Assembly (NCBI RefSeq): GCF_017358165.1
Contig: NZ_CP071446.1
Coordinates: 434,001 to 498,000, forward strand
Length of the DNA: 64,000 nt
Direction: 5' to 3'
DNA from: Thermosipho ferrireducens
GTDB lineage: Bacteria; Thermotogota; Thermotogae; Thermotogales; Fervidobacteriaceae
Positions 4,721 to 45,886 of this stretch are shown piece after piece; position 1 is the first letter of the stretch, and every line of letters begins with the position of its first letter. The notes beneath the pieces were generated by a model that was not told the origin of the DNA, searched no databases, and saw nothing but the letters and a program-made list of their open reading frames with translations. A program made the position numbers and the translations under genes.

Positions 4721-5173
4721 CAACTCTCGCAAGATCCTTCGTCGTTTCACTCTTCAGGACAGGCCTTGCTAACCTCGCTAAATACAAGATTCCTCACCCT
4801 TCGGGTTCGGAATGACATAAGTGAGGGTAAGATTTCTCGCCTTCTCGCTCCCCGGAATGACATAAAAAGAGAGTGTCATCCCGAACGAATGTGAGGGATC
4901 TTGTTTTTTTACTAACCTCGCCAATCTCGCCAACCTCGCTAACTCTTGCTAATCTCACCAACCTTGCTAACACTCGTTAAATCAAGATTCCTCACCCTTC
5001 AGGTTCGGAATGACATGGGCGGTGGATTCCTCCTCGCTCCCGCTCCTCGGAATGACACAGGTGGGGGATTCTTCGTCACTACGCTCCTTGGAATGAGCTA
5101 CTCTTTTTTGTCATCCCGAGGAATGAAATGACGAGGGATCTTATTTTACAATCCTCGCTAACTCTCGCTAATA
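4721..5173. repeat. composite repeat array R1
   Basis: Occupies the divergent region between copA and the gene at 5236. It holds forward modules (GATTCCTC...CGGAATGACA), reversed modules (TGTCATCCCGA...GAGGGATCTT) and CTCGC(T/C)AA satellites. One complete unit runs 4874-5015 (142 bp): reversed module, TTTTTTTACTAAC, about eight satellite copies, forward module. A variant ending CAGGACAGGCCTTGC opens the array. Short reading frames here carry no recognisable protein. Confidence 0.9.
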
Positions 5174-14157: not shown

Positions 14158-15477
14158 TTACACATTTTCATACTTTTTTCTTTCCCATTCTGTCACATAT
14201 ATTGAATAGCTTTTCCATTCTTTCCACTTAAGCTCCATGAATTTTTCGTATATATGATCTCCCAGCACCTCTTTAATCAATGGATCCTTTTCTGCTTCTA
14301 TTAGAGCTTCTTCGAGAGTCTTTGGTAGAGTAGTTATTCCTAATCCTTCTCTCTCTTCTTCATTCATACTGTATATATTCTTTTCAACAGGTTCTGGAGG
14401 TTGTATTTTATTTTTTACTCCATCCAATCCTGCGGCTACTAAAACAGCAAAAGCTAAATATGGATTACACGATGGATCTGGAGCTCTATACTCTAACCTT
14501 GTTCCCATACCACGTGCCATAGGAACTCTTATCAATGCAGAACGATTTCCAAGAGACCAGGCTACATTTACTGGTGCCTCATATCCTGGTACAAGTCTTT
14601 TATAACTATTCACTGTTGGATTGGTTACGGCAGTTATTGCTCTGGCATGTTTTAATACACCACCTACAAAGTATCTCATATTTTCAGAGATATCACCGGT
14701 TTTTTCATCATAAAATCCATTGGAACTTCCATCCTTAGAAAGCAGGCTCAAATGAACGTGCATTCCACTTCCATTAACTCCAAAAAATGGTTTTGGCATA
14801 AAAGTTGCATGTAAATTATTTTTTATAGCAAGAGTTTTTATAACCAATTTAACTGTTTGCACAGCGTCTGCAGAATTTAATGCATCTGCGTATCTGAAGT
14901 CGACCTCGTGTTGAGAAGGAGCAACTTCATGATGAGTAGCTTCAACGTCAATCCCCATTTCCTCGATCATAACAGCAACTTCACTTCTAAGATGCTCGGC
15001 AATGTCTACTGGCAGAAGATCAAAATAACCACCTTCATCTAAAAACTCATAACTTACTTTTCCATTCTTTTTTGGCAACAAAAAGAACTCTACTTCAGGT
15101 CCTGCATGTGGAACAAATCCAAGTCCGGAAGCTTCTTCCATAACAAGCTTCAACCTATACCGGGGATCACCCTCAAAAGGTTCTCCATTAGGCCTGTATA
15201 TATCACATATAAGTCTTGCACTTTTTTGACCTTCAAGAGTCCAGGGAAGGATAGCGAAAGTAGAGGGATCCGGGCGGAGGTACATATCAGATTCATTAAT
15301 CCTTACAAACCCTTCAATAGACGAGCCATCAAACATAATTCCTTTTTCAAATGCACGCTTTAAATCATTCACAGGGATTTCTACATTTTTCAAACTACCG
15401 TTAATGTCTGTAAACTGCAGGCGTATAAATCTTATGTTTTCCTCCTCAACAATTTCAAAAATTCTTTCAATCTCCAT
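14158..15477 (-). CDS. glnA: glutamine synthetase, type I
   Basis: 439 residues. Forms glutamine from glutamate, ammonia and ATP. Visible motifs are FTDINGSLKNVEIP, FDGSSIEGF, GPEVEFFLL, the NGSGMHVHLSL loop and EYRAPDPSCNPYLAF. The length and the absence of the adenylylated-tyrosine segment place it in the GSI-alpha group, which is controlled by feedback rather than adenylylation. ATG 15477 follows AAAGGGGGG. It is monocistronic: its own promoter lies about 110-135 bases upstream and a terminator follows. Confidence 0.96.
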   Translation of the reverse strand: MEIERIFEIVEEENIRFIRLQFTDINGSLKNVEIPVNDLKRAFEKGIMFDGSSIEGFVRINESDMYLRPDPSTFAILPWTLEGQKSARLICDIYRPNGEPFEGDPRYRLKLVMEEASGLGFVPHAGPEVEFFLLPKKNGKVSYEFLDEGGYFDLLPVDIAEHLRSEVAVMIEEMGIDVEATHHEVAPSQHEVDFRYADALNSADAVQTVKLVIKTLAIKNNLHATFMPKPFFGVNGSGMHVHLSLLSKDGSSNGFYDEKTGDISENMRYFVGGVLKHARAITAVTNPTVNSYKRLVPGYEAPVNVAWSLGNRSALIRVPMARGMGTRLEYRAPDPSCNPYLAFAVLVAAGLDGVKNKIQPPEPVEKNIYSMNEEEREGLGITTLPKTLEEALIEAEKDPLIKEVLGDHIYEKFMELKWKEWKSYSIYVTEWERKKYENV

Positions 15478-15695: not shown

Positions 15696-16064
15696 ACTAA
15701 CTTCGCAAGATCCTTCGCACTTCGTGCTCAGGACAAACCTTGCTAAAACATTCGCTAACTCTCGCCAATCTGCCAGTTACAAGATTCCTCGTCGCATACG
15801 CTCCTCGGAATGACACATTTCGTAGATGCTATCCCTCATTGTTTTTTTGTCATCCTGAGGAGCACAGCGACGAAGGATCTTGTTTTTTTACCAACACTCG
15901 CTAACTCTCGCTAAATTAAGATTCCTCACCCTTCGGGTTCGGAATGACATGGACGATGGATTTCTCGTTGCATACGCTTCTCGGAATGACATGAGTGGGG
16001 AGCCACTCTCGCTAACACCCGCTAACTCTCGCCAATCACTCACTAACTTTCGTTAACCTCGCTA
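15696..16064. repeat. composite repeat array R2
   Basis: Lies between MOSC and glnA and runs into the MOSC coding end. It contains the cleanest unit, 15848-15949 (102 bp): TGTCATCC...GGATCTTG, TTTTTTTACC, satellites AACACTCGCTAACTCTCGCT, then AAGATTCC...GGAATGACA. A variant module ending CAGGACAAACCTTGC lies at the left, and satellites continue to 16064. Confidence 0.9.
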
Positions 16065-16501
16065 ATTATCTCCACCACATCTCCCACGCTTATAATCCCA
16101 CCTTTAATAACTTTTAAAAACACCCCTTCAAGAGGCATAACACATGTTCCTACACGTTTTTTTATATCGCAAAAATCATGGCATTGTTTTCCAATCTGAG
16201 TGACTTCAAGCACAGCTTCTTTTATTTTTATCTTTGCTCCTAATTTCCACTTATATATCTTCTCAGCTTCTATTGTTATATTTTCTGCAAATTCGCCGTA
16301 TTCTATATCTATCCCTTTTTTTCTCATTTTTTCTATACTCTCTACAGCAAGCATGGAAACCTGTCGCAACCAATTTCCCGCATGGGCATCTCCTCTAATT
16401 CCAAAATTTTCTATCAACTCTACCTGCTCAACTGGCTTTTTTATAGTTCCCCTTTTCTCTGATATATTCAAGGATACAATTTTACCTATAATCTTTTTCA
16501 C
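16043..16501 (-). CDS. MOSC domain protein
   Basis: 152 residues from GTG 16501 (GGGAGGAG upstream). MOSC domains are sulfur-carrier modules linked to molybdenum cofactor chemistry. The conserved cysteine region TQIGKQCHDFCDI and the DCVMP-like GTCVMPLEGVF are present, and IRGDAHAG is typical of MoaB-linked MOSC proteins. It is last in the Mo/W cofactor operon. The final residues SEVNES and the stop codon are encoded by satellite copies of array R2, so the native C-terminus has probably been replaced or trimmed. Confidence 0.85.
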   Translation of the reverse strand: MKKIIGKIVSLNISEKRGTIKKPVEQVELIENFGIRGDAHAGNWLRQVSMLAVESIEKMRKKGIDIEYGEFAENITIEAEKIYKWKLGAKIKIKEAVLEVTQIGKQCHDFCDIKKRVGTCVMPLEGVFLKVIKGGIISVGDVVEIISEVNES

Positions 16502-23832: not shown

Positions 23833-24066
23833 CATGTCATTACGAACATATGTAAGGAGGATGTCATCCTGAGGGACGAAGTGACGAAGGATCTTTTCCT
23901 TATTGTCATTCCAAACGTATGTGAGGAATCTTGTTTTTTTACTAACTCTCGCCAACTCTCGCCAATTATAAGATTCCTCACCCTTCGGATTCGGAATGAC
24001 ATGGACGGTGGATTCCTCGCCTTCTTGCTCCTTAGAATGACATGGGCGATGAGACAGGCCTCACCA
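23833..24066. repeat. composite repeat array R3
   Basis: Lies between two converging terminators (tRNA operon and rplA). A complete unit spans 23904-24001 (98 bp): TGTCATTCC...GAATCTTG, TTTTTTTACTAAC, two satellite copies, then AAGATTCC...GGAATGACA. Extra reversed and forward modules flank it, ending with a truncated GACAGGCCTCACCAAT. Confidence 0.88.
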
Positions 24067-24073
24067 ATTTCTA

Positions 24074-24111
24074 AAAAAACAGCCTTGCCAATAAAAGCAA
24101 GGCTGTTTTTT
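24074..24111 (-). terminator. terminator after rplA
   Basis: 15-bp stem AAAAAACAGCCTTGC / GCAAGGCTGTTTTTT around an 8-base loop, with a T-run on the minus strand, 15 bases after the rplA stop. It ends the operon before rplJ would be expected. Confidence 0.9.
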
Positions 24112-32177: not shown

Positions 32178-32712
32178 AAGGGATCTTATTCCCTATTGTC
32201 ATTCCGAACGAACGTGAGGAGGATGTCATCCCGAGGAGCGTGAAGACGAAGGATCTTTTCCATTGTCATTCCGAGCAGAGCGAGGAATCTTGATCTTTTA
32301 CCAACCTCGCTAATCTTGCCAACTCTCGCTAACTCTCGCCGGTTATAAGATTCCTCGTCGCTCCCGCTCCTCGGAATGACATGAGTGGAGAGCCAATCCT
32401 CGCTAAATCAAGATTCCTCACCCTTCGGATTCGGAATGACAGAGTGGGGGATACCTCACCCTTCGGGTTCGGAATGACATGAAGAGGAGGCTAACCTCGC
32501 CAACTCTCGCGAGATCCTTCGTCGTTTCACTCCTCAGGACAGGCCTTGCTAATTACAAGATTCTTCGCACTCCGTGCTCAGAATGACAAAAAAAGAATGT
32601 CATCCCGAGGAACGAAGTGACGAGGGATCTTTTCCTTATTGTCATTCCGAACGCATGTGAGGAATCTTGTTTTTTTACTAACACTCGCCAATCTCGCCAA
32701 CCTTGCCAACTA
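32178..32712. repeat. composite repeat array R4 (longest)
   Basis: Fills most of the divergent yjbQ/glyA region. One complete unit spans 32264-32381 (118 bp) with about five satellite copies. Several reversed modules (TGTCATTCC...GAATCTT), tandem forward modules and a CAGGACAGGCCTTGC variant (near 32532-32550) follow. Confidence 0.9.
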
Positions 32713-38460: not shown

Positions 38461-38923
38461 CTAATTCTCGCAAGATCCTTCGCACTCCGTGCTCAGGACA
38501 GGCCTTATCAACACTCACCAACCTCGCTGTTTTATGTCATTCCGAACGCATGTGAGGAATCTTATTTTTTGTTTCTCGCTACCAACTCTCGCCGATTATA
38601 AGATTCCTCGTCGCATGCGCTCCTCGGAATGACATGAAAGGGGGATTCGTCGTTTTTATACTTCTTGGAATGATGTTCTCCTTTTTTGTCATCCTGAGGA
38701 ACGAAGTGACGAAGGATCTTATTCCTTTACTAATCTCACCAACCTCGCTAACTTTCGCTAACCCTCGCTAAATTAAGATTCCTCACCCTTCGGGTTCGGA
38801 ATGACATGGGCGGTGGATTCCTCCTCGCTCCTGCTCCTCGGAATGACATGAGTGGGGGAGCCAATCTCGCAAGATCCTTCGTCGTTTCACTCCTCAGGAC
38901 AGGCCTTGCTAACTCTCGCCAAT
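38461..38923. repeat. composite repeat array R5
   Basis: Two complete units, 38535-38634 (100 bp) and 38697-38806 (110 bp), each reversed module, T-rich tract, satellites, forward module. CAGGACAGGCCTT variants open and close the array. It ends 8 bases before the extended -10 of mntA. Confidence 0.9.
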
Positions 38924-39343: not shown

Positions 39344-39692
39344 AAGAGGCGACAGAGAATTCTTACTCGATATACTTGAAGCGTGTAGGAGAATTGAAAG
39401 ATATGTTAACAATTTGAACTACGACTATTTTCAAAAAAACTATGAAAAACAGGATGCTGTTATAAGAAATATAGAAATAATCGGAGAAGCTGCAAAAAAT
39501 GTTTCAACTAAATTAAAAAACAAATACACAGAAATAGACTGGAAAAAAATTGCCGGAATGCGAGATAAACTAATCCACTTTTACTTTGGTATAAAGCTGG
39601 AAATAGTCTGGGTTGTAGTTCAAAATGAGATTCCTTTACTAAAAAGAAAAATTTTTAAAATTTTAAAAGAGTTAGAAGAAATAGGAAAATAA
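39336..39692 (+). CDS. hepT: HepT-type HEPN ribonuclease toxin
   Basis: 118 residues, all helical. The RX4HXY motif is intact (RDKLIHFYF), preceded by IRNIEIIGEAAKNVS as in DUF86 HEPN toxins. Cleaves RNA unless modified by MntA. The gene pair is bracketed by repeat arrays R5 and R6, and R6 begins at its TAA stop. Confidence 0.9.
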   Translation: MSKRGDREFLLDILEACRRIERYVNNLNYDYFQKNYEKQDAVIRNIEIIGEAAKNVSTKLKNKYTEIDWKKIAGMRDKLIHFYFGIKLEIVWVVVQNEIPLLKRKIFKILKELEEIGK

Positions 39693-39829
39693 GATTCCTC
39701 CTCGCATGCGCCCCTCGGAATGACATGTTTTGAAAATGCCAACCTCGCTAACACTCGTTAAATCAAGATTCCTCACCCTTCGGGTTCGGAATGACATAGG
39801 AAAGGAGCACACTCGCCAATCTCGCCAAT
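39690..39829. repeat. composite repeat array R6 (short)
   Basis: Starts AAGATTCCTC at the hepT stop codon: forward module, satellites, second forward module with CCCTTCGGG, then two CTCGCCAA copies. No complete inverted unit. Ends about 25 bases before the cheW -10 region. Confidence 0.85.
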
Positions 39830-42689: not shown

Positions 42690-42878
42690 ATAAGTTGGCG
42701 AGAGTTGGAGAAGTTGGCGAGGGTTAGCGAGTGTTAGCGAGATTAGCGAGGCTGGTAAAATAAGATCCCCCTCACATGTGTTCGGGATGATCTTTTCTTC
42801 CTTTGTCATTCCGAACCCGAAGGGTGAGGAATCTTGTAATTAGCAAGAGTTAGCGAGGTTGGTAAAAACAAGATCCTT
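42690..42878. repeat. composite repeat array R7 (satellites in reverse orientation)
   Basis: The only array whose satellites read TTAGCGAG/TTGGCGAG on the plus strand. Order: reversed satellites, AAGATCCC...CGGGATGA, then TGTCATTCC...GAATCTTG, reversed satellites, GGTAAAAACAAGATCC, where the last module is cut off. Lies between priA and the Clp gene. Confidence 0.88.
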
Positions 42879-45436: not shown

Positions 45437-45886
45437 ACCAACCCTCGCCAATCTCGCTAATCTCGCTAACTCTCGCTAAATATAAGATTCCTCGTCGCAT
45501 ACGCTCCTCGGAATGACATGGAAGGTTGAGTCCTCACCCTTCGGGTTCGGAATGACAAAGGAAGAAAAGGTCATCCCGAGGAATATTCCTCTCCTGTCAT
45601 CCCGAGCGTATGCGAGGGATCTTATTCCTTATTGTCATTTCGAACGAACGTGAGGAGAATGTCATCCCGAGGAACGAAGTGACGAGGGATCTTATTTTAC
45701 CAACCTCGCTAACTCTCGCTAATCCCGCCAATCTCGCTAAATACAAGATTCCTCGTCGCATACGCTCCTCGGAATGACATTGAGGGGTGAGTCCTCACCC
45801 TTCGGGTTCGGAATGACATGGACGGGCGATTCCTCGCCTTTTTGCCCCTCGGAATGACATGAGTGGGGAAGCTAACACTCGCCAAT
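45437..45886. repeat. composite repeat array R8
   Basis: Contains a complete unit 45660-45779 (120 bp, about five satellite copies) plus several solo reversed and forward modules. Ends 12 bases before the extended -10 of rodA. The minus-strand open frames here are repeat-encoded and not genes. Confidence 0.9.

Follow-up and report, generated by a model that had tools for sequence, protein, structure and literature searches.

What is the 102-bp unit at positions 15848–15949 of the window (the whole 64,000-nucleotide stretch analysed here, positions 434001–498000 of the complete, single-contig Thermosipho ferrireducens genome of 1,982,543 bases), and how did its kind come to populate this chromosome? 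The original prediction described a composite in which hairpin-forming inverted ends enclose a satellite core, and proposed a non-autonomous mobile element rather than a simple REP sequence. Reading of the sequence confirmed all of the parts, namely a module, a T-run with its spacer, two satellites and an inverted module. The six other units listed with it are likewise present, except that the left module of the one placed at 38697–38806 begins at 38687 (TGTCATCCTGAGG...). All of these units are parts of longer clusters, and the window contains eight module-and-satellite clusters of 138–532 bp each. An Rfam scan of the window returned tRNAs and nothing else. The features, in window coordinates, are as follows.

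15848–15881, plus strand: left (upstream) hairpin module of the long class, outer stem ATCCT/AGGAT (sequence reading; covariation within the class)
15882–15896, plus strand: G-T7-ACCAACA spacer with the T-run, of the type trailing upstream modules (sequence reading)
15897–15914, plus strand: two satellite copies CTCGCTAA, at 15897–15904 and 15907–15914 (sequence reading)
15918–15949, minus strand: right (downstream) inverted hairpin module of the ACCCGAAGGGT class (sequence reading; covariation)
15707–16065, plus strand: entire cluster around the focal unit, with modules and satellites on both sides
4731–5171, plus strand: cluster containing the unit 4874–5015
23835–24091, plus strand: cluster containing the unit 23904–24001; the relative G008 lacks the unit between the orthologous flanks
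32178–32709, plus strand: cluster containing the unit 32264–32381
38472–38922, plus strand: cluster containing the units 38535–38634 and 38687–38806
39691–39828, plus strand: cluster of modules and satellites
42695–42857, minus strand: the sole cluster of opposite orientation in the window, an exception to the replication polarity described below
45444–45885, plus strand: cluster containing the unit 45660–45779

Genome-wide, the exact module pattern matched 400 times (203 + 197) and the exact satellite-pair pattern 240 times (127 + 113); the reversed-pattern controls gave no match in either case, which excludes chance as the origin of the pattern. Cluster analyses cover 906 kb (46% of the genome), read as stretches that include the window, and 166 clusters were found there. 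Their order is strict: an outer module is followed by a T-run, the satellites and an inverted module. As had been proposed, the core is polar and its copy number varies, the 8-mer satellite forming arrays of 2–8 copies with a step of 9 bp (285 steps) or 10 bp (181 steps). The association of modules with satellites is also non-random and obeys a fixed grammar. M+ modules lie upstream of arrays in 103 cases and in the reverse arrangement in 28, and M− modules lie downstream in 122 cases as against 13. Modules with a 'short' loop were found 47 times upstream of satellites and never downstream, those of the ACCC..GGGT type 55 times downstream and never upstream. Short or long modules thus stand upstream, ACCC or long modules downstream. 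The suggestion that the two ends are inverted copies of one module therefore holds for their inversion only, the left and right ends being of different subclasses, and since these classes differ the whole unit is polar. A third hairpin type occurs inside satellite arrays, where CTCGCAAGATCC...GGACAGGC is followed by CTTGCTAA (e.g. at genome positions 110724–111202 and 1078342–1078533). A nested insertion was considered for this type (CTCGCAAGATCC...GGACAGGCCTTGC) and rejected, because its context is identical in the clusters inspected, which suggests a fixed type of module.

That the modules are imperfect hairpins is borne out by covariation. Across 338 modules, one outer-stem position is T-A in 206, C-G in 125 and otherwise in 7 (331/338 paired), and another is C-G in 247, T-A in 79 and otherwise in 12 (326/338 paired). 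The inner stems show compensating variation around conserved GA/GA mismatches, with loops of 3–4 nt. The hairpin assignment rests on this covariation, because the DNA folding energies of single modules of the 28- and 34-nt types were no better than those of shuffled sequences; standard energy parameters may give no credit to tandem G.A pairs.

The modules look like a TGTC variant of the CGTC-tagged REP superfamily, which includes dRS3 of Neisseria and RPE-4/6 of Rickettsia (Di Nocera et al. 2013; PMC3733652). As far as the accessible part of that description goes, CGTC/TGTC REPs occur in several phyla, Thermotogae included, where their loops are divergent, and no dedicated transposase was found for them. 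The same part defines the superfamily by CGTC (or TGTC/CCTC) at one end, a stem of 8–9 bp opening with two A-T pairs, a loop of 4–5 nt and an unpaired tail that is mostly, though not always, CCA (PMC3733652). Measured against that definition, the present modules share the terminus, the two initial A-T pairs, the extragenic location and the lack of a known dedicated transposase; the TGTC start of the 400 modules agrees with the end criterion, TGTC having been required by the search pattern. They differ in having a stem of 5 bp, a tandem G.A and a further 2–4 bp, a loop of 3–4 nt and a CTT tail (CCA being a soft criterion), as well as in the satellite core, the fixed subclass order and the strong replication polarity. 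The accessible part of the paper makes no mention of a satellite core (PMC3733652), and a literature search with the module strings gave only unrelated papers among the matches listed. The contrast originally drawn with a simple REP thus stands for the arrangement, a REPIN-like doublet, and falls for the module, which is itself a REP resembling the CGTC/TGTC superfamily. In other words, a known building block appears here in a new arrangement and with an unusually strong imprint of replication, an identification that is well supported.

This imprint is the main new result and goes beyond what had been predicted. GC skew is negative to the left of about 571 kb and positive to the right, and changes back near 1.5–1.6 Mb, which puts the origin near 571 kb and the terminus roughly half a genome from it. 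The minus-strand position of the rRNA operon near 422 kb accords with this origin. The dnaA gene is at the contig start (genome position 404), about 571 kb from the skew origin. With the origin set at 585 kb for these counts, cluster orientation agreed with the replichore in 104 of 122 cases (p 7e-16). Satellites ran rightward in 62 clusters of the left replichore and the other way in 15, and leftward in 42 clusters of the right replichore as against 3, with one tie overall (p 2e-16). Orientation flips sharply between 570 and 602 kb, an interval that includes the GC-skew minimum at about 571 kb. For one satellite pattern, listed in full, a two-breakpoint model fitted 53 of the 67 loci, and no more than 51 were reached in 500 shuffles. 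When the origin was set at 571 kb for the array and module-class tests, each of the four module classes was replication-polar by itself (p 1.3e-11 to 2.6e-13), the long CCT/CCC class even where no satellite was nearby (p 4e-4), and concordant arrays were slightly longer than discordant ones (3.2 versus 2.7 copies, p 0.04). Among the 18 discordant clusters are several pairs of neighbours, and three lie close to the terminus; local inversions would explain them. The density of loci also declines with distance from the origin, from 13 to 1.7 per 100 kb, or about sevenfold. The replication polarity of the units is thus well supported; as the inverted modules stand on both strands, polarity alone cannot tell which strand is processed.

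Transcription does not account for this orientation, because between co-directional flanking genes the satellites pointed in the same direction 29 times and in the opposite one 28 times. The same figures make it highly improbable that the units act as terminators or attenuators of transcription whose placement relative to genes was selected. A hairpin with a T-run after it on one side would suit such a role, as would the intergenic location (in the 906 kb, no cluster lies inside any ORF over 600 bp), but units are found between divergent genes and between convergent ones alike. A further alternative is that the satellites are polar chromosome marks comparable to KOPS or Chi, kept in orientation by selection and showing a DNA-tracking or nucleoid protein the direction of the origin or terminus. 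The strong polarity, the enrichment towards the origin and the 9–10 bp period of an 8-mer whose complement on the leading strand, TTRGCGAG, reads in the origin-to-terminus direction would all be consistent with it. Marks of the KOPS kind, however, are expected to crowd near the terminus and to occur in coding DNA too. Moreover, isolated satellites outside clusters are few in the window and point both ways, and the satellite stays at background in all of the 102 other Thermotogota genomes, even though the task of chromosome segregation is conserved. We consider this explanation improbable.

Comparison with G008, a genome of another genus (840 kb compared; its flanking intergenic DNA is strongly diverged), bears on how the units arrived. 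Orthologous sites empty of the unit, originally named as evidence to look for, were found: at syntenic junctions, the gap measures, for example, 381 bp here and −26 bp in G008, 442 versus −4 bp, and 506 versus 86 bp. Clusters are concentrated at synteny breakpoints. Only 9 of the 46 gene pairs with a cluster were syntenic in G008, as compared with 171 of the 217 without one (p 4e-14), and the difference persisted for pairs spaced by more than 100 bp (9/46 versus 20/40, p 0.006). The focal cluster itself sits at a breakpoint. The neighbouring glutamine synthetase is 80% identical to proteins of Thermosipho MAGs, which marks the organism as a thermophile of the Fervidobacteriaceae type, and in Thermosipho its gene adjoins the orthologue of a gene found here at 846–847 kb. 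The two genes (genome 448158–449477, i.e. window 14158–15477, and 846017–846946) are here 397 kb apart, on opposite sides of the origin, and beyond each of them lies a repeat cluster, at 449739 (holding the focal unit) and at 848067. This is the outcome to be expected had an origin-spanning inversion taken place between inverted copies. The stretch at genome 570–600 kb, at the predicted origin, is nearly devoid of repeat clusters and carries duplicated sugar-nucleotide genes (98–100% identical) among IS5-like, IS110 and IS3-like genes.

Without any transposition, clusters might also have grown and been copied by slippage, gene conversion and template switching among existing copies, with instability dependent on the replication strand removing or flipping the wrongly oriented ones. 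The clusters are indeed mosaic and carry duplicated segments (481 bp at 99% and 217 bp at 97% identity). The slightly greater length of concordant arrays would fit as well, and the inverted modules could permit inversion of the core. Copies nevertheless occupy well over 100 dispersed sites, including junctions at which the genes of the relative overlap or abut, and polarity extends to the module class that has no satellites nearby. We therefore regard an origin by these processes alone as doubtful, while giving it some weight.

Spread through single-stranded DNA is in our opinion the most likely explanation. That nearly all units share one orientation relative to the fork suggests the single-stranded DNA exposed there as the route. 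We envisage a composite of TGTC-type REP hairpins that is REPIN-like and non-autonomous, its variable tandem core lying between a module at the left end and an inverted module of another subclass at the right. Such units would have spread by a lagging-strand process, the responsible enzyme would since have been lost, leaving them orphaned, and satellite number would have changed by slippage; recombination between copies may then have rearranged the chromosome and moved accessory genes. To this account as a whole we give about an even chance. Anatomy, covariation, intergenic location, replication polarity, the origin gradient, element-free orthologous junctions and the association with breakpoints are its observed basis, the gradient being predicted by it only with an added assumption. 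The ends of long copies, moreover, coincide with module borders more often than do random positions (38% versus 22%).

What counts against it is the search for a mobilising enzyme, along with the fact that no target-site duplication, excision or insertion was observed, the nearest genome compared being of another genus and strongly diverged in its flanking intergenic DNA. A REP-associated or other transposase carrying the module in its own flanks had been named as something to look for; none was found. The Y1/RAYT domain (PF01797) had no match in the genome, control genomes being positive, and neither TnpB nor a reverse transcriptase was detected there. IS21, IS5-like and IS110 elements were rejected as the source of the modules, the ends of the copies within the 46% of the genome read being unrelated. 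Five IS21-like copies are present (genome 553301, 797221, 1275544, 1499772 and 1746839); the four that were read are 99–100% identical, and two adjoin repeat clusters. It is conceivable, if unlikely, that a REP-type family multiplies via the lagging-strand template with no HUH/Y1 transposase, using host replication or annealing functions or some other enzyme. If this were true, HUH/Y1-free spread would leave a strong replication-oriented imprint on the chromosome and seed origin-spanning inversions. The 400 copies, with their strict subclass order and strong replication orientation, offer a direct handle on how CGTC/TGTC REPs spread, and the orientation, which implicates the single-stranded DNA of the fork, makes that route testable.

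Several known systems combine some of these properties. Like the present composite, REPINs, which are replicative units, and BIMEs pair two inverted REP hairpins across a spacer and are extragenic and clustered; REPINs are thought to move as single-stranded DNA (PMC3116915). In contrast to REPINs with their RAYT, the foot is TGTC instead of GTAG, the spacer is a variable tandem array and no RAYT was detected. Elements derived from IS200/IS605, a family with a documented lagging-strand preference (PMC6006769), share the asymmetric hairpin ends and the replication-strand bias, but neither TnpA (Y1) nor TnpB was detected in this genome. The terminal inverted repeats recall a MITE, although here they are imperfect and of a different subclass at each end. 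BOX elements of Streptococcus pneumoniae, compared by layout only, have two different end modules and a variable tandem core and are intergenic (PMC3049150); the core units of 9–10 bp and the hairpin REP ends set the present repeats apart. Finally, in eight 50-kb stretches of E. coli K-12 (NC_000913.3; gene orientation uncontrolled), 29 of 43 Z-class REPs were concordant with replication (p 0.06) and the orientation of Y-class REPs gave p 0.41, a polarity far weaker in this sample than that found here.

The relatives searched included no further genome of the same genus. The module pattern occurs in low numbers in 11 other Thermotogota genomes. No satellite was found in plasmids or phages; the 21 IMG/VR contigs with one satellite match each are taken as chance. 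In two genomes of other genera, G003 and G014, the modules lie in islands of accessory genes. Several of these genes have relatives in the T. ferrireducens genome at 59–90% identity; many of the relatives are bracketed by modules as well, although the gene neighbourhoods differ between the genomes. The shared genes encode ATPases of the DUF234/DUF4143 type and, judging from sequence only, a nucleotidyltransferase/HEPN-like pair and a MATE-like transporter. As these islands were picked for holding modules, only the T. ferrireducens side is unbiased; there, no more than 25 of 776 genes over 100 aa are bracketed on both sides. The modules might accordingly be regarded as attC-like sites at which recombination turns the bracketed genes into mobile cassettes; the folding of attC and its orientation relative to replication are a known precedent (PMC5371416). 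The genome, however, has only two tyrosine recombinases, the satellite CGCTAAC departs, by inspection, from the attC core RYYYAAC/GTTRRRY in lacking the R, and most copies in the window sit among ordinary housekeeping genes. Cassette formation is thus very unlikely. Because the units mark synteny breakpoints and bracket transferred accessory genes, they may be one of the chief causes of rearrangement of the chromosome in this lineage. Two islands by the skew origin, at genome 552–571 kb and 616–640 kb, have a cluster after almost every one or two genes; these are ATPase genes, HTH genes and small paired genes, with relatives in the G003 and G014 islands.
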